A DNA stretch of 64,000 nt from Malus domestica. Its lineage: Eukaryota > Streptophyta > Magnoliopsida > Rosales > Rosaceae. The stretch lies in the NCBI RefSeq assembly GCF_042453785.1, contig NC_091669.1, positions 10,366,501-10,430,500 on the forward strand. The letters run 5' to 3'. Positions 41,542 to 63,109 of this stretch are shown piece by piece. The notes under the pieces are model-generated. The model was given only the letters and a program-made list of their open reading frames with translations, ran no database searches and was not told where the DNA came from. The translations under genes were made by a program, and so were the position numbers. Positions within the stretch are counted from its first letter, which is position 1. Each line of letters starts with the position of its first letter.

Positions 41542-42053
41542 TGTTTGTACCATACTTGACCAATCCCGAAACTACCGAGCACCGGCCAACGCTATACTGT
41601 CAAGGACCCAGAAGAGTTCCCCTCCGACCAGGAGGCCAATCACTACTCGACACGTGTCAAGATTAGAAGCCAATCAGAGCGCAGCACGTGTCAACATCAA
41701 GAACCAATCATAACATGACACATGTCAATGTGACAAAGCTACAAGTTTTTCTATAAATAGGGGTCATTCCCCCACAATATTGCCTAATGCCATTTGTGTT
41801 AAATCATTCACAAGAACTCACTAAATTGAGAGCTTGATCCTTTGTACTTGTGTAAGCCCTTCACTACTAATAAGAACTCCTCTACTCCGTGGACGTAGCC
41901 AATCTGGGTGAACCACGTACATCCTGTGTTTGCTTCTCTGTCTCTATTCATTTACGTACTTATCCTCACTAGTGACCGAAGCAACCAAGCGAAGGTCATA
42001 AAACCTGACACTTTCTGTTGTACCAAAGTCCTCGCTGATTTTGTGCATCAACA
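41542..42053 (+). repeat. 5' LTR of element 2 (512 bp)
   Basis: Starts TGTTTGTACC and ends GCATCAACA. TATAAATA at 41752-41759 is a clear TATA box. CACGTGTCAA-type boxes (near 41660 and 41687) could be stress-responsive G-box-like sites. Confidence 0.95.
41752..41759 (+). promoter_or_regulatory. TATA box of the 5' LTR of element 2
   Basis: CTATAAATAGGGG context, about 210 bp into the 512-bp LTR; the same box is at 53613-53620 in the 3' LTR. Confidence 0.7.
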
Positions 42054-42072
42054 TTTGGCGCCGTCTGTGGGA
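42054..42072 (+). other. Primer-binding site of element 2
   Basis: TTTGGCGCCGTCTGTGGGA directly follows the LTR; TGGCGCC matches a tRNA 3' CCA end. This phrase is typical of plant Ty3/gypsy elements. Confidence 0.75.
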
Positions 42073-42159
42073 ACGACACTTATTCCTACTCTCTTCAGCT
42101 GTGTCAAGCTGGTTTCTATCATTCGTACACTTTCTTTTGACCAGGCATCCCTCTCCAAC

Positions 42160-43086
42160 ATGGGAAGCGAAGGAAGCCACAGCACACAGAATGACACCCC
42201 CCTTGCACATAGTGCGAAGCAACGAAAGAAGGAAGGAAAACGAGTTCTTCTTCAAGCTAAAGTCGATGAGTTGGAAGCTCAGAACAACAAGATAGCAATG
42301 AGGAATGAGGTCCTCCAGGAGCAATATGAGAAGCTCTTCGAGACACTCCACGAAGCTAGGCAAGCTCAGACACGCGAGCTTGTTGCCCCCGTGGAAGTCA
42401 ACCATCAACTGGGTGCCCTCCAACATGGAGGGTCACATGCATTCGACATAGATATCCCTGATAGGGAACAGATTACCCCTCGACTTGATAATCAACATGA
42501 GGCTTCTCTTAACCCAGTTGCTTCGACCCGAACCATGAGAAGTGGAGGGAGACACCTCTTTGCTGAAGGGGCAGAAGGATCGAAAGCCGTCTTTCGCGAT
42601 TGTCGGGATTTCCTGAAGCAACGTCGAGAGAATTCCATCCATATAAGCTCAAAGATCAATGACCCAAGGATTTCTGAGAGACTCGGTCCCCTGCCACGGC
42701 CCGAGCCGGCCACCAATTTGGGGAAGGGGCAACAAGTCCTAGAGAGACATGAGGGTACAGGGGACTTAGAGGTGTTCCGACAGACATACCCTGGAAGCCA
42801 GTACAACGAGTCCAGGGAAAAATCACATGCCCTTGATCAAACCTTCCTAATTCCAAGAGGAGATGGAGATTTACGAAAGAAAGCTCCAGTGGCACATAAC
42901 TCCGCTCAGGATCCCCTTGTCCTACAACTTCTTGAGGAAGTAAACAAGTTGAAGGCTGAACGTCAGGCTGAAATACTTGACTGGAACCAACCCAGGCCTG
43001 GCCCTCTTACAAGGAGGATCCTCAACACCCCCCTTCAAGCAAAGACAAAGCAAAAGCTTGGCTTGCAACTTTATACTGGAAAATAG
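42160..43086 (+). pseudogene. gag: Gag N-terminal part of element 2, ended by an in-frame TAG
   Basis: The ATG at 42160 (MGSEGSHSTQ) is the first good start after the PBS; the open frame runs back into the LTR but that part is non-coding. Residues about 30-75 are a coiled coil (LLQAKVDELEAQNNKIAMRN). A basic, disordered linker follows with RDFLKQRRENS and a Leu/Lys heptad near the end (LQLLEEVNKLKAERQ). TAG at 43084-43086 stops it after LQLYTGK; the same frame continues immediately with DPIEHLNLFEST and the capsid domain. So this is one gag gene broken by a single stop or relying on readthrough. Confidence 0.8.
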
Positions 43087-44694
43087 GACCCGATTGAGCA
43101 CCTTAACCTCTTTGAGTCCACCATGGCATACCGGATGCACACCGACGAAGAGCGATGTCTTCTCTTCCCCTCCACCCTCTCTGGCGGAGCTCTAAATTGG
43201 TATTGTCGTCTTACACCTGAGACGGTAGACTCATTTGAGGAATTGAGGAAACTATTTGTTTCCCAACACATTTTCCAAACCGATCGCTTGCACTCTGCAG
43301 ATGACCTGTACACTATCCGCCAGAAGCCAGACGAGTCATTACGTATGTATGCTGGCCGCTTCAGCCATGAATACTCCCGGTGTGCCGAGGCAGACGACAA
43401 GACTGCCCTCAAAGCCTTCACGGCAGGCCTACGTGATTGTTTCTTTAAATACATGATCAATGCCAATACTTGGAAGACTTACTCTGAGGTGATGGCGCAG
43501 GCTTATAACCATGCCTCCGCCGAGGCAAAGACATATCAGGAGAAACCCCCTACAACCATCCTTTATCAACAAGTGGGAGGTGGAAGCCAGACTCACCTAA
43601 ATGAGAAGACCTCGACTTTCCAAACAGCAGTGGCACCTCCCCATGCCTTGCATAATGCTTCGCCGAATCAACAGACATATCAATTTCAAGGCAAGAGGAA
43701 GGATTTCCATCCTCACCACTCTCATTTCAGTAAAAAGAGTAAGGGACACTATCCCGATAACCAAGGGTATCGCCACAATAACGCTCGCCCCCAGGCAGTC
43801 AATGCAGTGGGTCAAACCCGCGTCAAGATACCCCCTACCCCAAGGTATGAGACATACACGCCCTTGAATGCCACATGCGCGGCCATTTACCCCAGCATAG
43901 CTCACCTGATACCAAAGCCAAAGCCGAGGCACCCAGATTACACGCCCCCGAATAACGCGGGCATGTTTTGTTGCTACCATGAGCATAACGGCCATGATAG
44001 CGAGAAATGTATCATCCTCCGTGATCGTATTGAAGCTTTGGCACGAGAAGGAAAAATTGATCAATTCCTCCTTCACCCTCAAAGGGATAACCGTAACCAA
44101 CGCCAGGTGAATGTCATATATTCCATAAGCGGCGGCACACCCATATCTGAATCTTCCAATAGGGCCATGAAAAACAGTGAACGAATTATGAGGCCTGGTC
44201 ACCAAGTGTTTCACGTGGAAGACATCAGGGGAGGGAAGTATCAAAAGCCTAACTGGGATCCGATATGTTTCTACCCTGAGGAAGAAAGAGGCATCATCTA
44301 CCCTCATAACGACCCATTGATCGTGGAGGCTCACATAGCCAACTTTGATGTTCGACGAATCCTCGTAGACACAGGGGCTTCGGTCAATATCATGTTTGCC
44401 GAAGCTTTCAGGGCACTCAGTGTAGCTGAACACTTGCTCGATCGCTCGATTTCTCCTCTGATAAGCTTCTCCGGTGATATCGTGCAACCCTTAGGGAGCA
44501 TACATTTACCCTTTACTATTGGTACAGGCCCTTACACGGCTACCATTACCACTAACTTCCTAGTGGTTGACTGCCCAACGGCATACAATGTCATCTTTGG
44601 GCGCACAGGCATCAATGATCTCAAGGCTATGGTATCCACGCATATGCTGTTGATGAAATTTCCAACCCCCCATGGCAACGGCTACATCAGATGA
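43087..44694 (+). pseudogene. gag-pro: Gag capsid part and aspartic protease of element 2, ended by an in-frame TGA
   Basis: In frame with the upstream gag part (distance a multiple of three). The Retrotrans_gag domain contains LSGGALNWYCRLTPETVDSF and FVSQHIFQTDR. A zinc-knuckle-like Cys/His motif (CCYHEHNGHDSEKC, about 43975-44010) follows a Gln/His-rich stretch. The aspartic protease has the catalytic LVDTGASVNIMF (44361-44396) and the second strand YNVIFGRTGIN. It stops at TGA (44692-44694) after GNGYIR, and the pol frame continues without a shift. Confidence 0.85.
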
Positions 44695-47600
44695 GATCAG
44701 CTTAGTGCACGATCATGTTACAACACTTCAGTTAAGCAACAACACTTGCCCGGACCCAAGGAAACCCTGTCTGTACATGACCAAGTCACAAAGACCAGCC
44801 TAGATGAAGCGAACTTGGATCTTCCTGATAGCAACAATCAACCCGATGATCCTCGAGATGACTCTTTCACCCAGCAAGCCCAACCTGCTGAAGAGTTGGA
44901 GAAGGTACCTATCTCAAGAGATTATCCAGATCGCATGGTGAAGATTGGCACCACATTGTCACCACCCCTTCGGTTAGCATTGATATCTTTTTTGAAAGAG
45001 AACACTGAAGTCTTCGCCTGGTCATACGAGGACATGCCAGGCATCTCTCCCGATGTCATCTGTCATCGTTTGAGTATTGACCCCAAGATCAAGCCGGTGA
45101 GACAGAAGCGAAGATCTTATGACGCTGAACGATACGAGGCAATGAAAGCAGAAGTTGAAAAACTCAAAGGCATAGGCTTTGTCCGCGAAGTCAATTACCC
45201 GACATGGGTAGCAAATGTGGTCCTTGTTAAGAAAAATTCGACCAAAGAAAGTCTTTTGCTTCAAAAGGTCTTGTGGAGAATGTGTGTTGACTACACCGAC
45301 CTAAACAAAGGGTGTCCGAAAGATAGCTTCCCTCTTCCTCTTATTGACAGACTTATAGACTCTACGGCCGGGTGTGAACTCCTGAGCTTCATGGATGCTT
45401 ACTCAGGATACAACCAAATCCTCATGAACCCTTCGGATCAAGAACACACAGCCTTCACTACCGACAGAGGACTATACTGCTATAAAGTCATGCATTTCGG
45501 CCTAAAGAATGCAGGAGCGACTTATCAGAGACTAGTCAACTCAATGTTCGCCGAGCAGATTGGGAAGAGCATGGAAGTTTACGTTGATGATATGTTAGTC
45601 AAGAGCAAACATGCTGACCAACACATCACCAACCTATCTGAAACTTTCACTATTTTGAAGAGGTATCGAATGAGGTTAAACCCCAACAAATGTGCCTTCG
45701 GCGTAGGCTCTGGCAAATTCTTAGGTTTCATGATTAGCCAACGAGGCATTGAAGCTAATCCCGAGAAGATCAAAGCAATCCTCGACATGAAGGAACCGGT
45801 AACTTTAAAGGACATCCAGAGCCTTACTGGCAAGGTGGCAGCCTTAACCAGGTTCATTTCTAAGGCCACAGACAAATGTGCTCCCTTTTTTAAAGCACTT
45901 AAGGGAAGTAGGAAGTACATTACATGGACTGATGAATGTGCCGAGGCATTCAAAAACCTCAAGGAGTACATGAGTAAAGCCCCTCTACTCTCCAAGCCCG
46001 AGGTAGGAGACATTCTCATTATCTACCTATCGGTATCAGCTTCAGTCGTAAGTTCCGTTCTCATTCGAAAGGATGGGAATATTGAGCGACCTGTCTACTA
46101 CGCTAGCAAAGCCTTACAAGATGCGGAGACACGGTACTCTAACATTGAGAAATTGGCTCTGGCATTGGTCATGTCTGCTCGAAAACTCCGCCCTTACTTC
46201 CAAGCGCACTCCATCATCGTGCTTACAAATTATCCTCTTCGACAGATACTCCAAAGTCCTGACACTTCAGGGCGAATGATCAAATGGGCAATAGCGTTGG
46301 GTGAGTTTGACATCTCCTACCAACCAAAGCCAGCTGAGAAGGGCCAAGCAGTGGCAGACTTCATTGCCGACTTCACATATCCGGTTGACATTGCTTCTAC
46401 ACCTGAAGCAGTGGCTTCATTACCCCCGGAAGCTCAGAAGATAGAACCAACAACCCCAGCATGGAGTCTGTATGTTGATGGCTCATCCAACCAACAGGGC
46501 TGTGGAGCGGGACTAGTCTTGACTACACCCGACAAAGTAGCAATGGAGTATGCTCTTCGTTTCAAATTCAAGGCATCAAATAATGAGGCCGAGTATGAAG
46601 CCTTTCTAGCAGGATTACGTTTGGCCAAACACCTCGGGGTTAAACAAATTGATATTTTCAGTGACTCCCAATTGGTGGTCAACCAGGTTACCAACAACTT
46701 TGATGCTAAGGACAGCTCCATGGCAGCATATCTTGCACAAACACAACTTTTGCTCAAGCACTTCCACTACCAGATCACCCAAGTTCCTCGAGCGGCAAAC
46801 AGTCATGCAGACGCCCTGGCTCGCCTCGCCTCGGCTGTGGAAGACAAGATTGGAAGAAAAATCCATGTCGAACTGTTGGCAACACCAAGCACCATGGCCG
46901 CAGAAGTATGCAACTTACAACAGGGGGATAGTTGGATCACCCCGATCTATAATTTCCTTGCTCATGGCATCCTCCCAAATGATAAAGTCCAGGCTAAGCA
47001 AATTCGATACAAGTCTACCCGCTACCTGATCATCAATGATCAACTCTATAAGCGAGGTTTTAGCCTGCCATACTTAAGGTGTCTTACGCCTGCCGAGGCG
47101 GAAATCGTCATTCGGGAAATACATGAGGGAGTCTGTGGAGATCATGCTGGATCTCGGTCCCTAGCACACAAGACTTTTCGCCAAGGATATTACTGGCCAA
47201 CACTCCACCAAGATGCCATCAAAGTATCCCGCTCATGTGACAAATGTCAACGATATGCGGCTATTCCTCATTCCCCTCCAGAGCCTCTTACTCCTATGAT
47301 CAGCCCTTGGCCCTTCGCCCAGTGGGGACTTGATTTGATCGGCCCAATGCCGGCAGGGAAGGGCAAAGTCTGTTACGCAGTCGTTGCAGTGGACTACTTC
47401 ACAAAGTGGGCCGAAGTAGAACCCTTGGCAACCATTACTGAGGCAAAGATAGAAGACTTCGTGTGGAAGAACATCCTTTGTAGATTCGGCATTCCCAATG
47501 CGATAGTCACTGACAATGGGCGACAGTTTGACAACAAGAGGTTCAGGTTGTTCTGCTCTAAGTTCAACATCAACTTATGCTTTGCCTCTCCAGCTCATCC

Positions 47601-48168
47601 CCAGTCTAATGGACAAGTTGAGGCCATCAACAAAATAATCAAGCGCACTTTGAAAACCAGCTTGGACAAAGCTAAAGGCTGTTGGCCAGAATTTGTACCC
47701 CAAGTTCTTTGGTCATATCGCACTTCATATCGGACTTCAACAGGAGAAACTCCATTCTCACTTGCCTTTGGCACAGAGGCGGTTGTCCCTGTTGAGCTCG
47801 AGCAAGCAACATTCCGAGTCCAGAACTACATTCAAAGTGAAAATGACAAACAACTCACCCTCAACTTGGATTTAGTCGAGGAACACAGAAACCAAGCTCA
47901 CTTGAGGAATGTCGCCTACAAGCAGCGCATCTCCAACTATTATGACTCTAGGGTCAAGCCTCGTTCTTTCAAAATAGGAGACTGGGTCTTAAAGAAAAGA
48001 TTACTCTGCGACAGAGTCCCGAGTGAAGGCACACTTAGTCCAAACTGGGATGGACCGTATGAAGTCATTGGCATCAGTCGCCCTGGCTCTTACACACTTA
48101 GAAGCTCCGATGGCAAGACCCTTGGCCATCCATGGAACGCTGATCACTTGAAGTACTACTACAAATAG
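44695..48168 (+). CDS. pol: Pol of element 2: reverse transcriptase, two RNase H domains, integrase
   Basis: Continuous open frame in phase with gag-pro after the TGA; translation must come from readthrough or from protein supplied by another copy. RT: VNYPTWVANVVLVKK, LPLIDRLIDS, FMDAYSGYNQI and the catalytic VYVDDML (45577-45597). RNase H: PVYYASKALQDAETRYSNIE. A second, archaeal-type RNase H starts at WSLYVDGSSNQQGCGAG (46461) and runs to ANSHADALARLAS. Integrase: the zinc-binding HH-CC region (HEGVCGDHAG..CDKCQRY, 47125-47250), then catalytic D (DLIGPMPAG), D (IVTDNGRQFDN) and E (NGQVEAINKI). No chromodomain. No stop is seen inside pol. Confidence 0.93.
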   Translation, partial: DQLSARSCYNTSVKQQHLPGPKETLSVHDQVTKTSLDEANLDLPDSNNQPDDPRDDSFTQQAQPAEELEKVPISRDYPDRMVKIGTTLSPPLRLALISFLKENTEVFAWSYEDMPGISPDVICHRLSIDPKIKPVRQKRRSYDAERYEAMKAEVEKLKGIGFVREVNYPTWVANVVLVKKNSTKESLLLQKVLWRMCVDYTDLNKGCPKDSFPLPLIDRLIDSTAGCELLSFMDAYSGYNQILMNPSDQEHTAFTTDRGLYCYKVMHFGLKNAGATYQRLVNSMFAEQIGKSMEVYVDDMLVKSKHADQHITNLSETFTILKRYRMRLNPNKCAFGVGSGKFLGFMISQRGIEANPEKIKAILDMKEPVTLKDIQSLTGKVAALTRFISKATDKCAPFFKALKGSRKYITWTDECAEAFKNLKEYMSKAPLLSKPEVGDILIIYLSVSASVVSSVLIRKDGNIERPVYYASKALQDAETRYSNIEKLALALVMSARKLRPYFQAHSIIVLTNYPLRQILQSPDTSGRMIKWAIALGEFDISYQPKPAEKGQAVADFIADFTYPVDIASTPEAVASLPPEAQKIEPTTPAWSLYVDGSSNQQGCGAGLVLTTPDKVAMEYALRFKFKASNNEAEYEAFLAGLRLAKHLGVKQIDIFSDSQLVVNQVTNNFDAKDSSMAAYLAQTQLLLKHFHYQITQVPRAANSHADALARLASAVEDKIGRKIHVELLATPSTMAAEVCNLQQGDSWITPIYNFLAHGILPNDKVQAKQIRYKSTRYLIINDQLYKRGFSLPYLRCLTPAEAEIVIREIHEGVCGDHAGSRSLAHKTFRQGYYWPTLHQDAIKVSRSCDKCQRYAAIPHSPPEPLTPMISPWPFAQWGLDLIGPMPAGKGKVCYAVVAVDYFTKWAEVEPLATITEAKIEDFVWKNILCRFGIPNAIVTDNGRQFDNKRFRLFCSKFNINLCFASPAHPQSNGQVEAINKIIKRTLKTSLDKAKGCWPEFVPQVLWSYRTSYRTSTGETPFSLAFGTEAVVPVELEQATFRVQNYIQSENDKQLTLNLDLVEEHRNQAHLRNVAYKQRISNYYDSRVKPRSFKIGDWVLKKRLLCDRVPSEGTLSPNWDGPYEVIGISRPGSYTLRSSDGKTLGHPWNADHLKYYYK

Positions 48169-48379
48169 ACTCACGATGTACAAGTGTTGAGCTATAGCCG
48201 TTCGACATCCTATGTAATGAAGGCCATTTGGCAATGAATTCAATAAAGAGGTAATTTAGCCAACTCAGCCCTCACTCTTTTACATTCATAGCAAGCGATG
48301 CCGGAACCCTTCTCAATCAGAAAGCAATCCGTCTTCCACAGTCACTACAAAACAAGCAAATGAAGACCGTGTCAAGCGC

Positions 48380-48382
<3 letters not shown>

Positions 48383-48419
<37 letters not shown>
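48383..48419. repeat. Poly-A tract downstream of pol
   Basis: About 37 consecutive A between pol and the minisatellite; unstable in replication and assembly. Confidence 0.85.
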
Positions 48420-48420
<1 letters not shown>

Positions 48421-48800
48421 AGCTTCATCCAAAAAGCTTCACCCGAAAAGCTTCACCTCCAAAGCTTCACCCACAAAGCTTCACCTAAAAAGCTTCACCC
48501 AAAAAGCTTCACCCGAAAAGCTTCACCTCCAAAGCTTCACCCACAAAGCTTCACCTAAAAAGCTTCACCCACAAAGCTTCACCCAAAAAAAAACTTCACC
48601 CGAAAAGCTTCACTTAAAAAAGCTTCACCTACAAAGCTTCACCTAAAAAAGCTTCACCTAGAAAGCTCCATCTACATACTTTCACCATCAAAGCTTCACC
48701 ATCAAAGCTTCACCTAGAAAGCTTCATCTACAAAGCTTAACCATCAAAGCTTCACCTAGAAAGCTTCAACACCAAAGCTTCACCTACAAAGCTTCAACAC
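48420..48800. repeat. AGCTTCACC minisatellite, unit about 12 bp
   Basis: About 30 imperfect copies of AAAGCTTCACCY with short variations (Caaa, Gaaa, Taga). Each unit contains a HindIII-like AAGCTT palindrome. Not CRISPR: no unique spacers. Stray copies of the motif reappear near 50370. Confidence 0.9.
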
Positions 48801-49205
48801 AAAACCTTGCTCCAAATAAACAAATTTTGTTCACAAAACCCAAGATGCCCTTGAACTTGTACAAAAACACTTGGGTAAACATAAACATTTTTTGTTTTAC
48901 ACCCACAAGGGCCCAAAATTTTCCTTCTTATTTATTCACTTAAATATGTTCCCAAACATATTATAATAGATCCAACAACAAGCCAAAGTCCCAAGTTTCA
49001 TAATGGACAAAAGTACAAGCAATTCATCAATAATGAAGGTGCTACAAAAATTGGAATCTGCCCCAAAATAGAAATCCAACCCAAGAGACTTTTTCTCTCT
49101 CTCCCTCTTCCGCCTCCTTTCATCTATCAAATTTCTGCAACCTCTGCTCTTCTCCAATGGAGCTGAATTTTAGACACCCTATAGTTCTTGAGCATATGAA
49201 CAACT
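48801..49205. other. Element 2 region without a recognised gene
   Basis: Between the minisatellite and the 181-bp repeats; a 73-residue minus-strand frame (48936-49157) has no domain. Confidence 0.5.
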
Positions 49206-49960
49206 TTCAAGAAGGAACCATTTCTGTTTGAGCGACGGAAATTACAGTGTTGAAGCTCCAAACATGATAGTCGGCTTCTTGCAGATTTCGAAGCTGTTGT
49301 GATGTTTCGAAGATCTGGAAATATTTAACCGTTAGTTCATCCTGAATTTTTGATATGTTATGAAAGAGTCGATGAGGAACAACTTCAATGAAGAAAGCAT
49401 ACCGATCTGAACAAGAGAAAATGGAGTTTCAAAGCTCACAACAAATCTGACGGGTTGACAGAAAAATAATAACCAGTCATTCATCATACCTGGATTTCTG
49501 GAGTTATACTGCTCCGAGGGATCTCAAATTTGGATATGTTGTAGTTCACAAGCTGAGGAACAACTTCAATGAAGAAAGCATGCTGATCTGAGCAAGAGAA
49601 AATAGAGTTTCAAAGCTCACAACAAATCTGACGGGTTGACAGACAAATGATAAACAGTCACTCATCATACCTGGATTTCTGGAGTTATACTGCTCCGAGG
49701 GACCTCAAATTTGGATATGTTGTAGTTCACAAGTTAAGGAACAACTTCGATGAAGAAAGTATGTTGATCTGAACAAGAGAAAATGGAGTTTCGAAGCTCA
49801 CAACAAGTCTGACGGATTAACAGAACATTGATGAACAGTTACTCATCATACTTGAATTTCGGAAGTTGTACTACTCCGATGGATCTCAAATTTGGATATG
49901 TTGTAGTTCACAAGATAAGGAAAAACTTTCATGAAGACGACTTTGCAATCTGAGCTATAG
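49206..49960. repeat. 181-bp tandem repeats in element 2
   Basis: About four copies of a 180-181 bp unit containing CTGGATTTCTGGAGTTATAC, GATCTCAAATTTGGATATG, GTTGTAGTTCACAAG and GTTTCAAAGCTCACAACAAA. Two central copies (about 49389-49750) are nearly identical and the flanking ones are more diverged. The Tat lineage is known for satellite-like tandem repeats in its 3' untranslated region. Confidence 0.85.
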
Positions 49961-50214
49961 AGAAAGGTGTTATCTTGCATCCACTCAGGCTGATTAGTGG
50001 AAACGAAAAGCAATTCCACCAAAGAAAAGATGAAAAAGAGAGAAAAGCTACTAATTGCACTTGATCTTGTCTAGTCAATAGCATGCAGCATCAAACACAC
50101 AAAAGTTGGAAATATTTTTAGATAAAGCATATACGAATGTGTGACATCGAAACAAGGATTCGTTACTTTGACAAATTAGTAACACGCGAGACACCTCATT
50201 CGGCAACTCTCTTC

Positions 50215-50360
50215 GCCTGAAGACTTGGGGGACTCCCACCATATGCTACTGCACCTTCATACTCGGCAGTCTCACAACCACTCAGTGACTTGGATTTTTC
50301 AAGTCTCCAACCGAGAAGTTTTCCTCACTCGGGAAATTAAGGGAACACTACCTCAAACTA
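50215..50360 (+). other. Vestigial 3'-end-like segment (purine-tract copy)
   Basis: GACTTGGGGGACTCC..CTCCAACCGAGAAGTTTTCCTCACTCGGGAAATTAAGGGAACAC resembles the segment just before the real 3' LTR (53128-53402) but no LTR follows. This suggests the 50.4-53.1 kb module was inserted next to a duplicated 3' end. Confidence 0.45.
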
Positions 50361-50551
50361 CATGCTTCACTCACAAAGCTTCAACAATACAGGTTTCAAC
50401 AAAAGCAAAAATTCAAAGAACTTTATGAAGAAGGCTTTGGTGTATTTAACACAATATGTTGAAATGAAGCAAATCTTATTTATTAATATTTTCGATAAGC
50501 CACAAATATGTACATATACATGAGTCAAAATAAACAAACAAAAGGGAGCCT

Positions 50552-51227
50552 TCACAAAGGTTGCTTAGGGGAAGTCTCAGCAGTCGGTAGAGCCCCAGAA
50601 AGAGAAAGCACCGGAGGGTGGTTATCCGGAGCCTCAGTACTTGACAAAACCCCAGAAGGAGGAGGCATTGGAGGTTCATCATTTGAAGCTTCATTACCAG
50701 GTACAACCCTAGAGGACGAAGGCAATAAATGCCTTTGGAACAAACCCACAAACCGCTGATGATCAAGTAAAACCTTACCATCAGATTCCTTCATCTGGTC
50801 AAGCTTCCTCTTCATGTTTGTAGCATAGTCATGGGCGAGCCGGTGCAACTGCTTATTCTCATGCTTGAGCCCTCTAATCTCCTGTTTGAGACTCATCACT
50901 TCAGCAGCCAATGATTCAACTTGGCGGGTTCTAGCAAATAGGCGTTGGGCCATATTAGACACAGAACCTGCACACTGAACACTAAGAGCCAGAGAGTCCT
51001 TAACAGCCAACTCATCAGACCGTTTGGAAAGTAGTCTGTTATCTTTGGGAGTGAGAAGGTTCCTGGCCACCACTGCAGCGGTCATATCATTCTTCATCAC
51101 AGAATCCCCAACGGTAAGAGGACCAGTAGGGGATATGAAGGATGGGCGCCATATGTTGTCTGGAGAAGGCGTGGCTGTCTCTTCTCCAAGGTTCAAGTCA
51201 AAACGACGGTCGGAGGGTCCAGACATT
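50552..51227 (-). CDS. Antisense accessory protein of element 2: EAR-like motif plus coiled coil (224 aa)
   Basis: Runs against gag-pol, between pol and the 3' LTR. Start ATG at 51227 (MSGPSDRR); the open frame has one further in-frame ATG two codons upstream. The N-terminus has FDLNLGEE (EAR-like DLNL). A conserved block follows (SPDNIWRPSFISPTGPLTVG, then MKNDMTAAVVARNLLTPKDN), then AGSVSNMAQRLFARTRQVES, a leucine heptad coiled coil (LAAEVMSLKQEIRGLKHENK) and a Pro/Ser-rich tail with ~30-residue repeats. Near-identical in its first 170 residues to the protein at 5842-6510 in a different element. A TATA box lies about 110-115 bp upstream. Function unknown; no RT-related domain. Confidence 0.72.
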
Positions 51228-51336
51228 TTCAAATGTGTTGAAGAAGGAAGAGGTCAGACAAATCAAGATCTTAGAAGTGCAAGAAATGAGCTTCTACTGG
51301 TAGAGATTCAAGTGTGCTGTGGAACTTAATGCCAGC

Positions 51337-51349
51337 CTCTATAAAAATC
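51337..51349 (-). promoter_or_regulatory. Putative TATA box of the antisense ORF in element 2
   Basis: The plus strand reads CCTCTATAAAAATC, so the minus strand has TTTTTATAGAGG about 110-115 bp before the ATG; same motif and spacing as the copies in elements 1 and 3. Confidence 0.5.
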
Positions 51350-53127
51350 TGCACTCGACGGAGCTTCAGAAATCGATGAGGCGTTTGCTTTCTCAAAAGC
51401 TGGGCTGCTCAGAGACCACGAGGGCCGATCTCAGAAATCGAAGAGGCGTTTGCTTTCTCAAAAGCTGGGCTGCTCAGAGACCACGAGGGCCGATCTCAGA
51501 AATCGAAGAAGCACCTGCTTTTTCAGCCTCGTCAGCACCTGTCACATGCACACTCAGCTTTGCGGAAATTACGGGCAATCTGTCGAAGATTTCTGGTGAA
51601 GTAGAAAGCACGTGAATCTTACTGTTCAATCACCGCTCTCCATATGCACCATCAACTCCTCGGGTACCATATATAACTTTGTCAAAGATCTCTGACAAAG
51701 TTTAGGCACGAGAATTTCGAAGTTCCAGCTACCCTACTATTACCCATAAGGGTAAAGGAACAGCACCACTGCTTGACAACTGGAAAGTCCCTATGTGTGT
51801 CGACCTCCGTGTTTTGCGGCAAGACAGGTTGGCAAGAACGTCCAACCTTTACTCACATTCGAGAAAAGACTCCCAACATAATTACTTTCTCAAAAACCGG
51901 AGTAGCACCGCTTTCCGAATCTCGAGAGTCAGATCCTCGACGGGATTGCTTGTTCGAAAACCGAAGAGGCACAACTCTCAGAACTTCGAGAGCCAGATTT
52001 CCTTAGATAAAGCTTGTCTGTAATCTTCACACGTAATATCAGCTTTCCAGATACCACATACCACTTTTTCAAAGTGCTCTGACAAAATTAAAACACGTGA
52101 AGCTGGCAGCTCCCACTACATTGCTGTGACCAAGAAGGGTAAAGGAATAACATTACTACTTGTTATTGGGAAATCCCTATATACATTGACCTCCCTCCTC
52201 AACGGACAGGCAAACCTGCAAAAATGCTCAACCCTTTCTCGCATTCGAAAAGGCACCCTCAACATAACCTCTCGAAATACTCAGCTTTATTTCCCCCCGA
52301 TAATACTTCAGCAAATAAGCCACACCAAGAACAAGAGTATCTCATATCATCAGGGTCGAAAGCAAGAGTATCCCATATCATGCTTTCTCCCTGTCTTTGT
52401 CTTTGTCCTTGTCCACACCTGCAGGACAAGGAGAAAGAGAGCAGTCAGTCGGAACCTGAAATCAAACCTCCAATTTGGAACTGACTGCCTGGAGCCTTTG
52501 CCTGGTTGCTTACTTAGCATTGCTCTCGAGTACTCATCCTCAACTGCTGTCAAGGTCACGAATTCCACCGGCAAATACCTCATGACAGTTGATCAGATAT
52601 TGGCTCTTTACACTGAAGCTGCCAAGCGTGGATGAGTCACTATGAGGGAATGTTCTGAAGGACCATTTAAATGCAAAGGTTGCACACCACTTCTGCCATG
52701 CAAAAGATTGAAGCAGAAGGTTCAACGGTGAGCTGAAACAGATCACTACAGCACGACACCTTTCCATACCACATTCATTATTCCGTCAACAGCAAAAGTA
52801 TCCCATATCATCAAGGTCGAACGTACTCTAGATTTGATGGACTTGTTTTGACCCTCAAATTTTTGAGTCGGCCTTATACTCTGAAGGGCACCAGAAAACC
52901 CTCCAGCACAGTTCAAGAATAAGCATGTGGAAAGTTACTTCTTCAAAAGCAAAAGTATCTCATATCATCTCTTATCCATTTGCTTCTCCTTATCCTGGCA
53001 GTTGAATGAGAGACAAGGAGAATGAGAACAATCAACCGGAAGCCGAAGTCAAACCTCTGATCCTGGGTTGCTTACTTGGAAGTTTGACTGCTTACCTTGT
53101 CTGTCACCTCTTTCGGCAGATCTCCTA
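51350..53127 (-). repeat. Rest of the shared antisense module in element 2
   Basis: Reverse-complement homology with element 1 (about 4170-5720). Examples: AGCCTCGTCAGCACCTGTCA and CTTTGCGGAAATTACGGG match the repeats near 5100-5400; CATATCATCAGGGTCGAA and GACCCTCAAATTTTTGAGTC match 4180-4260. It holds a local duplication (51370-51500, GAAATCGAAGAGGCGTTTGC) and several short frames without recognised domains. Confidence 0.65.
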
Positions 53128-53389
53128 GCTCGGCGACTTGGGGGACTCCTACTATAGGGTTTGTATCACACTTGACTAAGCCCGAAACTACAACTAAGCT
53201 TCAAGTGAAATTGATACATTACCTTGTGCGTCAACATCAGCTAAATACACCATTCCCAGATGGAGGAAAGGTACTTCCAGAGAAGGGCAGATGAAGATCA
53301 GACCACACTTCGGTACTTAGAAGTTTCGTGATTACTCAAGGGATTGGATCTTGCAAGTCCCCAACCGAGGAGTTTCCTTCACTCGGGAA

Positions 53390-53402
53390 CTTAGGGGAGC
53401 AC
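53390..53402 (+). other. Polypurine tract of element 2
   Basis: ACTTAGGGGAGCAC directly precedes the 3' LTR start TGTTTGTACC. Confidence 0.6.
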
Positions 53403-53914
53403 TGTTTGTACCATACTTGACCAATCCCGAAACTACCGAGCACCGGCCAACGCTATACTGTCAAGGACCCAGAAGAGTTCCCCTCCGACCAGGAGGCCAA
53501 TCACTACTCGACACGTGTCAAGATTAGAAGCCAATCAGAGCGCAGCACGTGTCAACATCAAGAACCAATCATAACATGACACATGTCAATGTGACAAAGC
53601 TACAAGTTTTTCTATAAATAGGGGTCATTCCCCCACAATATTGCCTAATGCCATTTGTGTTAAATCATTCACAAGAACTCACTAAATTGAGAGCTTGATC
53701 CTTTGTACTTGTGTAAGCCCTTCACTACTAATAAGAACTCCTCTACTCCGTGGACGTAGCCAATCTGGGTGAACCACGTACATCCTGTGTTTGCTTCTCT
53801 GTCTCTATTCATTTACGTACTTATCCTCACTAGTGACCGAAGCAACCAAGCGAAGGTCATAAAACCTGACACTTTCTGTTGTACCAAAGTCCTCGCTGAT
53901 TTTGTGCATCAACA
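53403..53914 (+). repeat. 3' LTR of element 2 (512 bp)
   Basis: Reads the same as 41542-42053 base for base as far as I can check; followed by the TSD agttt. Confidence 0.95.
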
Positions 53915-54101: not shown

Positions 54102-54463
54102 TGTTGTAAAATCGATAGTGTGTTTAGTGGAATAAAAGAAACAAGACACAAAATTTACGAGGTTCCTCTACAGTCAGTGTGACTAGAGTACGTCTTCAGG
54201 GCAGCAGTGGTGCTTTCATTATAATTTGGAATAATAAGAGTACAAAGATAACTCTCTCTATTATCTCCTCTCTTTTTCTCTCTTCCTCTTCCTTCTTCTC
54301 TCTCTACCATGAGTCACTTACCTATGTTTGGTGTGTTTTGCATTTATATAGAAAACATGAGTCGTAGGGAGTAAGCTTTGGCAAATAGCGAAAGACAACC
54401 TTTATTCCCACTTGTAGCTTAGTGGATTAGTGGCCAGCGTGGACATCCACCATATTTACAACA
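54102..54463 (-). repeat. 3' LTR of element 3 (362 bp)
   Basis: TGTTGTAAAATCGATAGTG..CCATATTTACAACA. Differs from the right LTR at a modest number of positions, so this insertion is older than element 2. Confidence 0.88.
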
Positions 54464-54839
54464 CTCCCCTTTGGATGGCCACAAGTCTTCGATTGACTCG
54501 TTAAAATCTTGATCTATCTTGGATGCTCCTCCTGATTTCAAATCATTTAGGCTGATCGTTGATCATTCTGCTTCAGTCTCTTAGCGATAAGAGTTGCCGA
54601 AAGAGATGCTTTACTTATTGTTAACTTTCCACAGGCTTGTTCTTGAACTGGGTTAGAGAGCCTTCTGCTAGACTTACCCCAAAGGTCTGAATTTACTCTT
54701 TTTATCTTGAGCGGAATTTGATTCAAGGGTGGTGGACACTTGATCTTGAATCGAACTTGTGATTTCTTCAAGGGCTTCGAGGTTTGATCTTGAATGAAAT
54801 TGGACCATGAGGAGCTTCACGTGGCAAGTGATCTTCGGT

Positions 54840-55827
54840 TTTGTCGGGGATGAATCAACACGTGTTTGTTGCGCTTGTCTCTGCATGCTTCAATGTATCA
54901 TTTTCACTTGCCTTACTTGTTCCCCTTGCATAAGTAGTATTTTCCCTGCTTTTCCCCCATGCATGTATGGCATCTTCTCTTGCAGTATTTACCTTCTGAT
55001 ACAGGAGTGGAATGCAACCCTTGCATTTGGATGGTTCGTCACTTCTTGGTGACTGGAGACCCAGCTCCAACAACAGTTGAAGATGGCTACTCGAGAGCAA
55101 TACTAAGTAAGCAATCAGGAAAGGTTCCAGGCAGTTGGTTCTAGGCAATAGGTTCCTTACCGGAAGTTTGAGTGGAGGTTCCAACATATTGCTTTCTTTA
55201 TCCTTGTCTTTACAGGTAAGAACAAGGACAAAGGAAAGGATAGGGAGATTTCATGATATGAGATATTTTTGCTCTCGTCCCTGAAGATATGAGATACTCT
55301 TGCTTTGGTGTGACTTGTTTTGAAGAGGCATTCTCGGAGAGGAAGAAAACTGAGTATTTTGAGATGCTTTGTTGAAGATGCATTCTCAGATATGAGGAAG
55401 AGTTAGGTATTCTTGCAGATCTGCCTTGTTATGGAGAACGGAGATCGACATATATAGAGATTTTTCAGTAGCAGGTAGTGGTGTTGTGCCTTTACTCTTG
55501 TCAGCAACTGTGGTGTAATTAGAACAGTAAGATTTACGCGTTTTCAACTTTGTTAGAGATCTTTGACAAAGTTGCACGCGATATCCAAAAAAGCTGAGAT
55601 TGCGTCCGAAAAATGCCAACGAACTTTATTCAGGAAAATTTGACTTTGGAAATTTGAAGAGCAGTGCCTCTTTGATCTCTGAACGAGTGGCTCTGTTGCC
55701 TCTTCTTTTATAGAGACATCAATTGTGTTTAAGAGTATGATCAGAAAGTTGCTGCCTGTAGAAATTTCCTCCTTCTTACACTTCTGAAATTTTACTTGAC
55801 CTTCTTTTTCCTTCATCATTTCTGAAA
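54840..55827 (+). repeat. 5' part of the shared antisense module in element 3
   Basis: Direct homology with element 1 positions about 4270-5840: CATGCTTCAATGTATCATTTTCACTTGCC, then GAGGTTCCAACATATTG..CTTTATCCTTGTCTTTACAGGTAAGAACAAGGACAAAG, then ATATGAGATACTCTTGC. The tandem repeats seen at 5060-5665 are almost absent. No independent gene. Confidence 0.65.
55705..55717 (+). promoter_or_regulatory. Putative TATA box of the antisense ORF in element 3
   Basis: CTTTTATAGAGACA about 110-115 bp before the ATG at 55828; third instance of the conserved motif and spacing. Confidence 0.45.
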
Positions 55828-56253
55828 ATGACTTGCCCATCTAACATTTGCTTAGATTTGAGTCTTAGGAGTGATACGTTCGAGCAGCGTCAGGATAATA
55901 TATGGTGTCCGTTCTTCTTATCTTCTAATTGTCCTCTTACGGTTGGGAACTTTGTGATGAAGAATAACATAACTGCTACTGTGGTAGCTAGGAATTTTCT
56001 CACTCCAAAGGATAATAAGATCCTTTCAAAATGGTCTGATGAGTCGGTTGTTCAAGACTTACTGGCTCTCAGTGTTCAGTGTGTGGGCTCTGTATCCAAT
56101 ATGGGTCAACGCTTACTTGCTCAAACTCGCCAAGTTGAATCATTGATGGATGAGGTGGCAAGTCTTAAACAAGATATCAGATGGCTCAAGCACAAGAATA
56201 GAGTGTTAAACGTACTTGTAAATAATTACTTGAGGTTCGTTACTAGATTTTGA
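55828..56253 (+). pseudogene. Shortened antisense accessory ORF of element 3 (141 aa)
   Basis: Homologous to the ORFs at 5842 and 50552. The N-terminus has CLDLSLRS, so an LxLxL/EAR-like motif is kept although surrounding residues changed. It continues with DNIWCPFFLS, MKNNITATVVARNFLTPKDN and the coiled coil (QVESLMDEVASLKQDIRWLK). It stops at 56251-56253; the sequence just behind it still encodes the Pro/Ser tail (VPHNQSPVPPLSG and EASHEQHL to a stop at 56377-56379). So the middle part (residues about 142-175 of the others) was lost by deletion or frameshift. It is antisense to the copia remnants, as in the gypsy elements. More diverged than the other two copies. Confidence 0.6.
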
Positions 56254-56464
56254 AAGCAACTGATGCCTTCCCCTTTTGTTGTTTTGCCAAGTACTAGGGT
56301 GCCACATAATCAATCTCCAGTGCCTCCCCTTTCTGGGGTATTTCCGAGTAATGAGGCTTCACATGAGCAACATTTGTAAAGGCTTCATCCTGTTTGTTTG
56401 TTTTAACTCATGTGTATGTACATATTTGTAATTTCTCGGATATATTAATAGATAAGATTGATTT

Positions 56465-56600
56465 CATTCAATGTATTCTGCTAAATACAATAAAGCATAT
56501 ACTTCACTAAAATATGGTACTTCTGGACCAAATATTAATTTATCTTTACCCTTACGGAGATAAATGATCATTCTTAGTGTCGACATTATTTGAGTATTTA
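56465..56600 (-). pseudogene. Copia RT remnant (second copy)
   Basis: The minus strand encodes GPEVPYFSEVYALLYLAEY, matching the SSEVPHLSAIGALLYLAQF segment of the RT fragment at 59497-60054. Confidence 0.55.
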
Positions 56601-57985
56601 ACTCATAATCTTCAATCTATATGATTCTTTAATATCATAAACATTATGAATGAGATTTGTGTTGGCATATTGTTCAATCTGCAGTTCGAGACAATATTTC
56701 TTTCAACACTTTATATTATTTCTAAACTCTTCGAGAGTTTCAATTCAACTCTTCAGGAGTTCTAATTTAATATCATCAACTTCTTGCAAGAGATTTTAGT
56801 ATGTTGCAACAATATCATAATGATAGTACTCACTACGGCAATTTATACCATCCATTGTTATTGAGTACATATTTTATGCTTTACCCTTCCGGGGTTTACT
56901 TCAAGCAATTTGAATCCTTCAAGGATTTTCTACACTTCATGACACATTTTCTTTTGGAATTTATACAGAGTAATTTGCTCCCATGTATACTTGAGGGATT
57001 TACTTATGGAGATATGAAGTGGGCGACTCACAACCCTTCGTATATAATTCTCCATTCATATGAACTTGTTTACAAGAGTATAATTTCAGGTTTCAATACC
57101 TTGTGTCATATCATTTGAGTGTATTTCACTGTATTACAAATGCCCAATGTAACCTCCTTGGTTCAACATGTTTTGGATATTTGTATTATATTCAAATATA
57201 TAGGTCCATTTTTTCAAGTTCGTACATGGAATTGCCTTTCTCCATTTTTGGCCAATAATTTTGTTGACGAAAAAGAACGAGACTCAATATCAACACAGCT
57301 CATTGATGAATTTAGTAGCTACTTATAAAAACCAAAAATACCATTGGTTATCATCAATCTGTGATCCTATATTCTCATATGCATGTGCATGCATAAAAGC
57401 TTTTTATTTCTTTGGATATCCATTACCTCTTCAAGGGCATTACACTATCTCTTCTAAAATAGTCGTAATTTAGAGAATGTGGATCATAACCTCTTCTAGA
57501 GCGTTATAGAGCTTGGATTTTAATCTCCACTTCCGGGAGTTGAGTCATTGGAACCTATATGTCTATCATGCTCCATGCATGCGACATCAATATTCCCATG
57601 TCCGTGGATTGTCCTTCCTGGAACGTGTATCCATGCGACGACTGTCATGCTTCTGGCATGCAAAAATTATGCTTCGGGAATGCAATAGTTTAGTAGTGTC
57701 ATATTCTTCTTCTTTCGAATGAATGAACCTTTTGAGTCTAAGGGTCTGCCACGCTTCAGGTGTGCAACGGATAAATCATTTACTGCCATATTATTTTGTC
57801 CAACAGAGACATCAATTCTTGTAGGCACATTTGCAGCAAGTATATATGATTTCATCACTTTCGTTGCATCATTCAATTATTCTTACTTCATTTTCATATT
57901 GATTGCTTCGTGAATCAAAATAAGACAAATTATCTTCGTTCTTCTGGAACGGTCTTTTCTTATAATTATTCTAGAATGATATTTT
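56601..57985. other. Element 3 interior without a recognised gene
   Basis: AT-rich, with short repeated phrases (CTTCAGGAGTT, CTTCCGGGAGTT, TCTGGAACGGT/TCTGGAACAATG). Several frames of 60-105 residues lack domains. Probably copia untranslated or interdomain sequence. Confidence 0.45.
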
Positions 57986-57989
57986 CTCT

Positions 57990-58430
57990 TCGTTCTTCTG
58001 GAACAATGTTATTTTTTCCCCTTAATGGCGGGAAAACTGTCTTATCAAAATCATAGTCCGCAAATCATGCGGTAAATATATCCCCAATCAAAGGTTCCAA
58101 ATATTGAATGATAGATGGTGATCAACATCAATGCCTAATCAGCGATGATGCCTTATTTCAGTACATTGTGGCAGTGCAATAGGCACATAGATAACACAAC
58201 CAAAAACTCGTAAATGTTTAATGTTTGACTGGTGCCTAAACACGAGTTGTACTGAGAAATATCGATGGTTGGTAACTGGTCTCAACCAAACTTAATAGTG
58301 AATTATGTAAAATAACATGTCCCCATGTCAAAACTGGCAATTTCGTTTTCATGAGTAGAGCGCGGGTAATCAATTTCATCATCTTAATAAATGCTTCTGC
58401 TAAACCATTTTGAGTATGGACATAAGGAAC
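57990..58430 (-). pseudogene. Copia integrase remnant
   Basis: The minus strand carries HTQNGLAEAFIKMMKLITRA and LLMKTKLPVLTWGHVIL, then the SPSIIQYLEPLIGDIF and FADYDFDKTVFPPL segments of copia integrase and its C-terminal extension, separated by stops and shifts. The catalytic Glu region (GLAE) is visible; the two Asp are not. Clearly non-functional. Confidence 0.75.
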
Positions 58431-58689
58431 TTCTGGTCCTTATTAAATAGTCTGTAGACTGAGACTCTTATGACTTTTATTACAATTAAGTTGAGGCACT
58501 GTGGCACTTCAAACTTACAATACTCATCAAGGAATTTCATGTCCTGATCTTCAAGATTAAGGGACTTCATACCTAATCTTTTTGCGTGATGGAACTTCCA
58601 ATCATTTTATATGATGAGGATCAAGAAACTCCAATATCTGATCTGATCAAGAAACTATAGGCCCTATATATACTTATCGTAACAAAAGG

Positions 58690-59025
58690 TAAGTACAATA
58701 AATAAATTAAAGCAATAGGCGGTAATTCCAGCCATAGTAAATAAATTGCATTTAAGTAAATAAAGCTTGTGACAAGGGTTTTAATCCAGCACCATTCACA
58801 TAAATCAAAACTTAAAGCAGTAGACGGTAAAACCGTCCATGATAAATAAATTGGTTTAAAGTAAATAGAACTTGTGACATGGGCTTTAAACCAACACCAT
58901 GCACATAAATATCAAAGCTTTAAAGCAAAGGGTAATAATTTTACCCACTGTAAATAAATTGTTGTAAATAAATAGAACTTGTGAAAGTGTTTTAAGCCAA
59001 CCCCATTCACATAAATAAATAAATA
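58690..59025. repeat. Tandem repeat, three units of about 115 bp
   Basis: Each unit has AAAGCARTAGRCGGTAA, CATRRTAAATAAATTG, AACTTGTGACA(A/T)GGG and ACCATTCACATAAAT. It lies downstream of the RT/RNase H fragment in the minus-strand sense. Confidence 0.85.
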
Positions 59026-59059
59026 TATATATATATATATTCTTCTTTCTTTTCAGTAT

Positions 59060-59242
59060 CAGTTGCCTCGTTAAAACCTTGCTTGGAAAAACCTAGTGGG
59101 AAAAAAACCATAGCAAAGGAAAAACAGTACAACTTTACCTGAATGGTGTTGAGCATGCTTATGTTGCCTCGTTAAAACCTTGATAGGAAAAACCCAATGG
59201 GAAAAAATCTTAATCGAAGGAAAAATAGTACAACATGCATGT
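59060..59242. repeat. Duplicated copia 3' segment
   Basis: Two copies of GTTGCCTCGTTAAAACCTTG followed by GGAAAAACCYARTGGGAAAAA about 100 bp apart, then the GCTCCCCCTGAA phrase. This arrangement is common near copia 3' ends in plants. Confidence 0.7.
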
Positions 59243-59309
59243 ATCATGAATGCTCCCCCTGAACTATATTCCTCCTGATTCCGCATTCTTCAAATTTGTA
59301 AGCCGATGT

Positions 59310-60075
59310 AATGTAATTCCCTGCACTACTTCTGAAATGTGCACTTTGGTAGAGATTTGGTGAACAAGTTTGCTAAATTTTCATTGGAACGAATTTGTTT
59401 GACTTCAATAACTTTACCCTTCCGAAGTTCATGTGCACTGAAAAATCTTGGAGATATGTGTTTAGTCTTATCACCTTTGATGAATCCTTCCTTCATTTAG
59501 GCGACACAAGCTGCATTATCTTCATGGATGATAGTTGGAGTGTCTGTCTTTGAAGGTAAACCACATGAATTCCGGATGTGATTGATCATTGATCTTAACC
59601 AAGAACATTCACGACTTGCTTCATGTAAAGCAATTATTTCCGAGTAATTGGAAGATGTAGCAACTAGCATTTGCTTCTTTGATCGCCATGAAATTGCAGT
59701 ATCTCCATTAGTGAACACATATCTATTTTGTGAGCGGGCTTTATGCGGATCAGAGAGAAAACCAGCATATGCGTAACCAACAAGGATTTGTTCATTTGTG
59801 GGCTTGTCTGAGTAGAAGAGACCCATATCTGTTGTCCCATGAAGGTATCGTAGAACATCTTTGACTCAATTCCAATGACGAATTGTTAGAGCAAAGCTAT
59901 ACCCGGCTAACAAGTTAACTGAAAAAGCTATATCTGGTCTAGTAAATTGTGCTAAATATAATAAAGCACCTATTGCGCTCAAATGTGGTACTTCTGAACT
60001 AAGGACCAGTTCATCATCTTCTTTTGGACGAAATTGATCTTTCTTAATGTCCAAAGAACGAACGACTATTGGGGT
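59310..60075 (-). pseudogene. Copia reverse transcriptase C-terminus and RNase H fragment
   Basis: Minus-strand frames 60054-59866 and 59826-59497 join across a frameshift and an early stop near 59866-59870. Recognisable parts are KPTNEQILVGYAYAGFLSDP, TGDTAISW-like NGDTAISWRSKKQMLVATSS, YSEIIALHEASRECSWLRSM and IHEDNAACVA: the RNase H block of Ty1/copia pol. The catalytic RT YVDD part is not present; the upstream portion is cut off by the foldback at 60078. Confidence 0.85.
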
Positions 60076-60077
60076 GC

Positions 60078-60925
60078 TAGCCTTATTGGATTGAATTGGC
60101 TTTGTGTGACCTCCACAACAACCCAGATGGCCCTGAGTTTGAGACTAGTACAGACAGACAAATAAGAAAAAGGAAGGAGGGATTATGGAATGGTGTTTCA
60201 AGCAACGTGTGAAAAAGAATTGGAAAGGTGGAATTTTGGTGTATGATGTTGAGACAAAAGGAGAAAAGGACAAAGGTTTCTGATGATGCATTGCACCATC
60301 TAAATAAAAATAAATAAATAAAAAAAGGGGCAATGGGGCCATTTTGGAATGGTGTGTAGCATCATGTGAAAAAAGGAATAAAAGCAAAGTTCTTGAATGG
60401 TGCACAGCACCATGTGAAAAAATGAATAAGAAAATAATAAAATAAAAAAAGGTAAAGGTTTTTGGATGGTTGGTGTTACACCATCTGAAAAGAAAGAAGA
60501 ATTTTGCTTATTCATTTTTTTAGATGCTGTAACACCATCCATCCAAAAACCTTTACCTTTTTTTATTTTTTTATTTTCTTATTCATTTTTTCACATGGTG
60601 TTGTGCACCATTCAAGAATTTTGCTTTTATTCCTTTTTTCACATGATGCTACACACCATTCCAAAATAGCCCCATTTCCCTTTTTTTTTTAATTATTATT
60701 TAGATGGTGCAATGCATCATCAGAAACCTTTGTCCTTTTCTCCTTTTGTCTCAACATCATACACAAAAATTCCACATTTCCAATCCTTTTTCACACGGTG
60801 CTTGAAACACCATTCCATAATCTCTCCTTCCTTTTTCTTATTTGTCTGTCTGTACTAGTCTCAAACCCAGGGCCATCTGGGTTGTTGTGGAGGTCACACA
60901 AAGCCAATTCAATCCAATAAGGCTA
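60078..60925. mobile_element. 848-bp foldback: long inverted repeat with about 411-bp arms
   Basis: Left arm 60078-60488 and right arm 60515-60925 are reverse complements with few mismatches. The outer ends are TAGCCTTATTGGATTGAATT and AATTCAATCCAATAAGGCTA; the inner ends are GGATGGTTGGTGTTACACCATC and GATGCTGTAACACCATCCATCC; the loop is only about 26 bp. The arms contain four short ATGGTGC-type palindromes with AT-rich spacers. No coding capacity; frames in it are mirror artefacts. It is inserted in the copia RT remnant and would form a near-perfect RNA hairpin if transcribed. Confidence 0.88.
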
Positions 60926-61395
60926 CCAGAAACTAACGTTGTTCTTGCATGGCCCAGAGAACATGGCGTCGCAAAGCAAGAACTTCCCTATAGGGACATA
61001 GATGACAGCGGAGTTGATGGAGGTATAAGAGAATGAGCCCTATGTGGAGTCAGTCCTGCCATCACCATCTCAGACAACCGAGTATTCATGGGAGTTCTCG
61101 AGATCTATCAAAAACGACGCGGTCTGGGTTTCCAAGTCTGATGAGATTTTTCTGGATCTTTGGAAACCAATTGTCAAGTACCAGTTTTCTCATCTCGTGA
61201 CGACTTCAGGTCGTTGTAAATTTCAATTCTCACTGGAATTTGGTGGGGCGCTTCAGACGTAGTGGGAGAGATGAAAATGGACATACCTTTTATTCTGTGA
61301 GATTTTGGCTAGCAGAGGTGGGAGGTAGGTAATGCTTCACCGGATTTATGGCGTTATGCCTTCCACTGACATGAGAGCTTCTCGTGCTGATAAGG
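60926..61395. other. Unrecognised coding-like segment next to the 5' LTR of element 3
   Basis: GC-richer than its surroundings. Plus-strand frames include TNVVLAWPREHGVAKQELPY and TEYSWEFSRSIKNDAVWVSK, followed by EIFLDLWKPIVKYQFSHLV, a protein-like pattern I cannot assign. It may be a captured host fragment or copia leader sequence. On the minus strand CCTTATCAGCACGAGAAGC beside the LTR (61395-61377) could be the primer-binding site. Confidence 0.3.
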
Positions 61396-61756
61396 TGTTG
61401 TAAAATCGACAGTGTGTGTAGTGGAATAAAAGAAACAAACACAAAATTTACGAGGTTCCTCTACAGTCAGTGTGACTGGAGTACGTTCTCGGGGCAGCAG
61501 TGGTGCTTTTATTATAATTTTGAATAATAGGAGTACAAAGATAACTCTCTCTATTATCTCCTCTCCTTTTCTCTCTTCCTCTTCCTTCTTCTCTCTCTAC
61601 CGTGAGTCACTTACCTATGTTTGGTGTGTGTTGCATTTATATAGAAAACATGAGTTGTAGGGAGTAAGCTTTGGCAGACAACGAAAGACAACATTTATTC
61701 CCACTTGTAGCTTAGTGGATTAGTGGCCAGCGTGGACATCCACCATATTTACAACA
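61396..61756 (-). repeat. 5' LTR of element 3 (361 bp)
   Basis: TGTTGTAAAATCGACAGTG..CCATATTTACAACA; a TATATAAATGC box on the minus strand lies near 61634-61645. Followed by the TSD taaac. Confidence 0.88.
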
Positions 61757-63008: not shown

Positions 63009-63109
63009 AGTTTTGTAACATCCCACATTGTCCAGGGGAGTGATCCTTAGATGTATATTCTCATCCCTACCTAGCACGAGGCCTTTTGGGAGCTCACTGA
63101 CTTCGGGTT

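Follow-up and report, generated by a model that had tools for sequence, protein, structure and literature searches.

A 64-kb window of the Malus domestica genome (a 64,000-nucleotide stretch of contig NC_091669.1) contains three long terminal repeat (LTR) elements, here called E1, E2 and E3, each with a 5-bp target-site duplication (TSD). In all three (3/3), an open reading frame (ORF) runs opposite to its own element on the 3′ LTR side. The ORF is a genuine antisense accessory gene under selection, and genes of this kind are already known. Its copies share homology and position, and they show purifying selection, a zipper pattern and a conserved upstream octamer. We give about even chances to the fuller explanation that we favour, in which this is an antisense accessory gene of apple Tat Ty3/gypsy elements and their relatives that has its own promoter and encodes a zipper-paired trans regulator.

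Copies, position and selection

The E2 copy is intact and encodes 224 aa on the minus strand (50552-51226 from the first ATG; 51232 if a TTG start is used). The initial annotation had given it as 50552-51227, of which the start and the strand stand and the end is corrected to 51226. The E1 copy (5842-6510, plus strand, 222 aa) is also intact, and the E3 copy (55828-56253, plus strand) is a pseudogene: its helix has lost 22 residues, and a stop at 56251-56253 truncates it, beyond which homology continues to 56358. The claimed homology of the three ORFs was borne out by tblastn. At E <= 1e-3, the E2 protein matched its own locus and two further sites in the window, over 225 aa at 78.7% (E = 2e-114) and over 201 aa at 51.2% (E = 5e-58). 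The same protein is 100% identical over its full length to P0002, a Malus domestica protein. Over aligned codons, protein identity is 79% for E1/E2 (222 codons), 56% for E1/E3 (176) and 57% for E2/E3 (176). E1 and E2 are 88% identical in aligned codons 16-170 (the core) and 46% in the tail, so that the earlier description of two copies as near-identical does not hold.

In E2, pol ends at 48168, the ORF occupies 50552-51226 antisense to gag-pol, and the 3′ LTR begins at 53403. In E1 the ORF lies between the LTR and a region holding gag and captured host-gene pieces. The placement first proposed, antisense and between the coding region and the 3′ LTR, applies to all three elements, with the difference that no pol domain was found on E1's own strand. 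In E3 the surrounding stretch (54617-56496, minus strand) is homologous, in separate pieces, to the 3′-terminal parts of the other two elements by sequence comparison. A further common stretch lies between the antisense ORF and the 3′ LTR (E2 51964-52550, E1 4615-5094, E3 55068-55570). There E3 has ~72% DNA identity to E1 and E2, and a 215-nt part of E1 is 81% identical to E2; the E2 stretch holds a 169-aa sense ORF without a Pfam match.

Neutral evolution of the copies, the alternative raised in the initial annotation, would put the ratio of nonsynonymous to synonymous substitution rates (dN/dS) near 1. Neutrality was not seen. The NG86 estimates were 0.34 for E1/E2 (222 codons; 0.19 in core codons 16-170 and 0.70 in the tail), 0.27 for E2/E3 and 0.28 for E1/E3. 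YN00 gave 0.42 for E1/E2 (0.26 in the core), 0.18 for E2/E3 and 0.22 for E1/E3. Within ungapped blocks dN/dS was 0.20 (E1/E2) and 0.18 (E2/E3), and the ORF frame was the sole stop-free frame of six in both pair comparisons. We also reassigned the observed substitutions randomly to like bases (5000 draws, four directions). Nonsynonymous codons numbered 19 in E1/E2, where random placement gave 33-34 on average, and 29 in E2/E3, where it gave ~42; no placement was as low as observed (0/5000 in each of the four directions). Among the three opposite-strand frames, the best reached 147/5000 placements as low. These comparisons indicate purifying selection on the ORF frame that acts on the amino acid sequence. 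A chance ORF is ruled out by homology and selection together.

E1 also has a 352-aa ORF on its sense strand (5058-6116, minus) that overlaps the antisense ORF and the tandem array upstream of it. We rejected this frame as the real gene: over 103 codons it is interrupted by one stop in E2, and its conservation is weaker (147/5000), as mirrored codon positions would lead one to expect.

The protein family and its possible role

To describe the protein we used an alignment of 84 rows, made up of two window copies and 82 relatives chosen by hand from 282 fetched. Residues 49-144 are best conserved and residues 177-224 least. V103, L106, V110, L113, I117, L120, N124 and L127 are kept in 81-84 of the 84 rows, and residues 103-127 thus read as a leucine zipper with Asn at an a position, a feature of parallel dimeric zippers. 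From the same alignment AlphaFold2 predicted a single long helix at residues 70-167, mostly at high confidence (10-residue blocks reach a predicted local distance difference test score, pLDDT, of up to 98), preceded by short helices at 47-57 and 60-66, with low confidence elsewhere. The long helix and the kept heptad leucines agree with the coiled coil that had been proposed from the sequence. None of the three ORF proteins matched a Pfam family at its cut-off, and coiled-coil Pfam families matched the relatives weakly (best E 0.0003). On these searches the family is not matchable to a described domain. A bZIP transcription factor was considered and rejected: the zipper is present, but no basic region or Pfam bZIP match was found in the three ORFs or among the families listed for the 84 relatives.

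Three protein searches returned 2075, 698 and 1512 matches, the best 120 of each being listed, and relatives in Malus and Pyrus are among those listed. The 2075 are protein clusters that match the E2 protein at E <= 0.01, and the largest among the best 120 has 2492 member sequences. Scans of viral contigs gave no relatives of the antisense ORF. Two subfamilies can be told apart, one with MSGPSD..FDLN[LF] (E1 and E2) and the other with M.[CN]PSN.CLDLSL (E3 and Pyrus proteins). Several Pyrus relatives (P0148, P0158, P0167, P0227, P0236 and others) are named S ribonuclease or S2-RNase by their source; these labels look like misannotation of a retrotransposon ORF.

Upstream of each copy stands the TATA-like octamer TTATAGAG, 118 nt before the ATG in E2 (51337-51344, minus strand), 117 nt before it in E1 (5725-5732, plus) and 120 nt before it in E3 (55708-55715, plus). 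The octamer occurs five times in the window, counting both strands, and three of the five are these occurrences at -117, -118 and -120. In gapped alignment, blocks of similarity run through the region upstream of the ATG, and the region common to E1 and E2 takes in units of the 101-102-bp tandem array of E1.

In the mechanism that we favour, the antisense gene would have a promoter of its own lying ~120 nt before the ATG, and its small protein product would pair through the leucine zipper. The protein would then regulate the element in trans, for example as a repressor of the LTR promoter or of a host factor. Repression might proceed through the N-terminal DLNL/LxLxL stretch, in outline comparable to gene23 of Grande or to HBZ of human T-cell leukaemia virus type 1 (HTLV-1). 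HBZ has a zipper, but no homology is claimed between it and the apple protein, which lacks a bZIP match. HBZ is described as an antisense gene product with nuclear localisation (PMC11963269). Antisense ORFs, including gene23 of the maize element Grande, are reviewed by Vicient and Casacuberta 2020 (PMC7264820), where gene23 is credited with antisense transcription from its own promoter and with a nuclear protein. Like the apple gene, gene23 is an antisense accessory gene near the 3′ LTR, a likeness of description; for the apple gene, the conserved TATA-like octamer marks a candidate promoter, and a nuclear location of the protein is putative. For the apple protein we infer transcription, dimer formation, nuclear action and repression.

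Several observations weigh against this reading. The YN00 ratio for E1/E2 (0.42) is weaker than the others, and selection might act chiefly on source copies. Without gaps, the 60 nt before the ATG, a region with indels, are alike at only 20/60 positions in E1/E2 and 23/60 in E1/E3, and the conservation of the octamer may reflect mere homology of the whole module. The AlphaFold2 model has a mean pLDDT of 66 and a predicted template modelling score of 0.32, and a lone long helix carries little information. Pfam bZIP was matched neither by the three ORFs nor among the families listed for the 84 relatives. Finally, the EAR-like motif is variable: LxLxL is present in 30/84 rows, only a DLN[LFV]-like form in 37/84 and neither in 17/84, and residues 1-16 belong to the less conserved parts of the protein. 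The N-terminal DLNL/DLSL motif of the initial annotation is therefore found in all three window copies but is not constant in the family.

The antisense arrangement itself is already known; what differs here is the protein family, in which no TRP28 was found, and the copy in an element with a copia-like frame. An antisense ORF at the 3′ position is reported as a Retand trait, usually with a TRP28 domain; such ORFs occur in nearly all recent Retand clusters surveyed, and TRP28 ORFs (PF04195) in all but two of 63 clusters (PMC11963269). An earlier survey reports TRP28 in 23% of Retand elements and finds extra ORFs of at least 250 codons highly diverse (Neumann et al. 2019, PMC6317226). Both sources agree with the initial statement that Tat-lineage gypsy elements carry extra and antisense ORFs. 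The eORF-3′R class of PMC6317226 resembles the apple ORF as an extra ORF (eORF) in the 3′ part, in reverse orientation, in the OTA/Tat clade; its cut-off is 250 codons, and the apple ORF of 224 codons falls below it. The function of Retand antisense ORFs is called unknown in PMC11963269 and PMC7264820, and the main text of PMC11963269 does not name Malus. Among the open-licence papers listed by our literature searches, no title or opening of an abstract mentions this apple protein family.

The sharing of position and orientation with the TRP28 ORFs of nearly all of the 63 Retand clusters (PMC11963269) raises the question of whether the apple protein is a shortened relative that lost the TRP28 domain. 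We regard this as unlikely. PF04195 matched none of the three ORF proteins, none of the frames scanned in the pol-to-LTR region of E2 (every antisense frame and two of the three sense frames), and is not among the 25 of 138 families listed for the 84 relatives. The apple protein also differs from TRP28 ORFs in its length of 224 aa, its zipper helix, its Pro/Ser tail and its presence in an element with a copia-like frame.

We are equally doubtful that the protein works in the particle or the pre-integration complex, for example in nuclear entry or RNA packaging, instead of in transcription. E1 has gag and the antisense gene with no pol domain found, and a retroviral accessory-protein role is discussed in PMC7264820; however, an antisense transcript would be needed anyway, and no sequence feature ties the protein to gag. 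Less probable still is that the antisense RNA matters and not the protein, by pairing with genomic RNA and feeding small-RNA silencing or element control. The conserved octamer and the antisense RNA roles proposed for such ORFs (PMC7264820) speak for it; selection on the amino acid sequence, which RNA alone leaves unexplained, speaks against it. Both roles could coexist.

The gene would make a compact test case for whether antisense proteins control their element, being short, strongly selected, zipper-bearing and preceded by a conserved TATA-like site. It is present both in intact-looking E2 and in E1, which has gag but no pol found.

E3 and a possible link to copia elements

The initial annotation assigned the E3 copy to a copia-type host. 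Copia-like pieces are present in E3, which looks to have a copia-like frame; they are identified largely by their motifs, with one weak SH3_retrovirus match (57200-58420, E = 0.005, below the family cut-off). In its LTR, E3 is not similar to E1 (36/100 shuffles reach the score) and weakly similar to E2 (2/100). Directly inside its 5′ LTR stands CCTTATCAGCACGAG, which would fit a half tRNA-Ile primer binding site. Half-tRNA primers are reported only in Ty1/copia, with half tRNA-Ile in Bianca (PMC6317226). ARAGORN found no tRNA in the window for comparison with the E3 primer site. A copia-like RNase H and pol-end piece (59200-60144, minus strand) has four in-frame stops, of which the final one may mark where pol ends; we read its motifs as those of a copia-like RNase H, and it has no Pfam match. 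A second piece, copia-like reverse transcriptase (RT)/RNase H (56464-56586, minus strand), adjoins the module common to E1, E2 and E3. The two pieces resemble each other, with a score of 91 against a shuffle mean of 24 (0/200 shuffles as high) and 48% protein identity over 27 aa (E = 0.001). The copia-like piece had no relatives in the viral contig scan and a single, chance-level match in the PDB (E = 0.47).

The homology between E2 and E3 extends ~40 nt into this copia-like piece (E2 50422-50460, plus strand, by sequence comparison), and 0/1000 shuffled flanks reach the score. E1 is without this edge. When the E2 edge was compared directly with the other copia-like copy it matched weakly (4/200 and 24/1000 shuffles as high). 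Because the E2/E3 homology runs into the copia-like piece, the junction between copia and module seems to predate the divergence of the modules in E2 and E3. This common junction suggests exchange between superfamilies and is the best evidence for it, though thin: the stretch is short, and it comes from comparison with a decayed, mosaic element. The specific route in which the Tat lineage of E2 received the antisense gene together with a copia-like scrap is possible but rather unlikely.

We put at slightly less than even the chance that the E3 module came from a one-off rearrangement and that the sharing across superfamilies is of no broader significance. The element is a decayed mosaic in which the RNase H piece of copia type lies upstream of a piece resembling integrase/RT (both identified largely by motif), and it is the single such element in the window. 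An 854-bp fold-back (60075-60928), 93% self-complementary, also lies between its 5′ LTR and the RNase H piece. Such an event would leave the ~40 nt that E2 has in common with E3 to be accounted for. The apple protein P0121, with 94% identity to the E3 ORF, keeps the same deletion without the stop; other copies of the E3 lineage may therefore exist, or P0121 could represent an allele from a different apple. That a gypsy element inserted itself into E3, which had been raised as a way to undo the claim, is less likely, since the module has no LTR-like stretch of E1 or E2 type on its flanks and E2 has part of the junction.

In PMC6317226, 314 gypsy and 45 copia eORF groups are given, and we saw there no mention of a group common to both superfamilies; among the open-licence papers listed by our searches, no title or abstract opening names an antisense ORF common to copia and gypsy. 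If the copia link is real, the junction is marked and could be used for tracking gene exchange between superfamilies. An accessory gene spreading between retroelement superfamilies would, if true, be a shared regulator or a shared parasite of retrotransposons.

Host elements and other features of the window

E2 (41542-53914, plus strand, TSD AGTTT; TSD letters of all three elements were read by eye) has LTRs at 41542-42053 and 53403-53914 that are identical at 512/512 positions. Its gag ORF (43123-44694, plus; Retrotrans_gag E = 8e-15) is followed by a pol ORF (44746-48168, plus) in which the domains succeed one another as RT, RNase H, second RNase H and integrase, with RT_RNaseH at residues 424-521, RVT_3 (the second RNase H) at 578-694 and the integrase zinc-binding domain at 784-837. 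Because the second RNase H stands between RNase H and integrase, we assign E2 to the Tat lineage; the same order is reported for two groups of the Tat clade, Ogre and Retand (PMC6317226). In E2, the interval from pol to the antisense ORF holds two tandem arrays (48421-48803 and 49371-49937, with 14/42-bp and 181-bp units), a position at which about half of recent Retand elements are reported to have such arrays (PMC11963269).

E1 (2431-13530, TSD GTACT) is placed on the minus strand by its gag ORF (10590-12683, minus; Retrotrans_gag match). No pol domain was found in the three frames of its own strand at Pfam E <= 0.1. At the place of pol, its minus strand carries captured host-gene pieces (8087-9725): a DELLA N-terminus in 9639-9968 (minus strand, E = 2e-5) and an Endomembrane protein 70 piece in two frames at 8267-9407 (E = 5e-64 and 3e-51), which continues into a protein kinase piece at 8087-8263 (E = 3e-18). 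A high-copy repeat of apple, HODOR, is described in PMC13334179, and E1 might belong to it. E3 (54102-61756, TSD TAAAC) is placed on the minus strand by its copia-like pol remnants, and its LTR pair has a Kimura two-parameter divergence of 0.049 over 361 sites.

Elsewhere in the window, two direct repeats of 288 bp, 88% alike and with starts 354 bp apart, occupy 63013-63654, and an F-box domain (E = 4e-7) is encoded in a 348-aa ORF at 26827-27873 on the plus strand.
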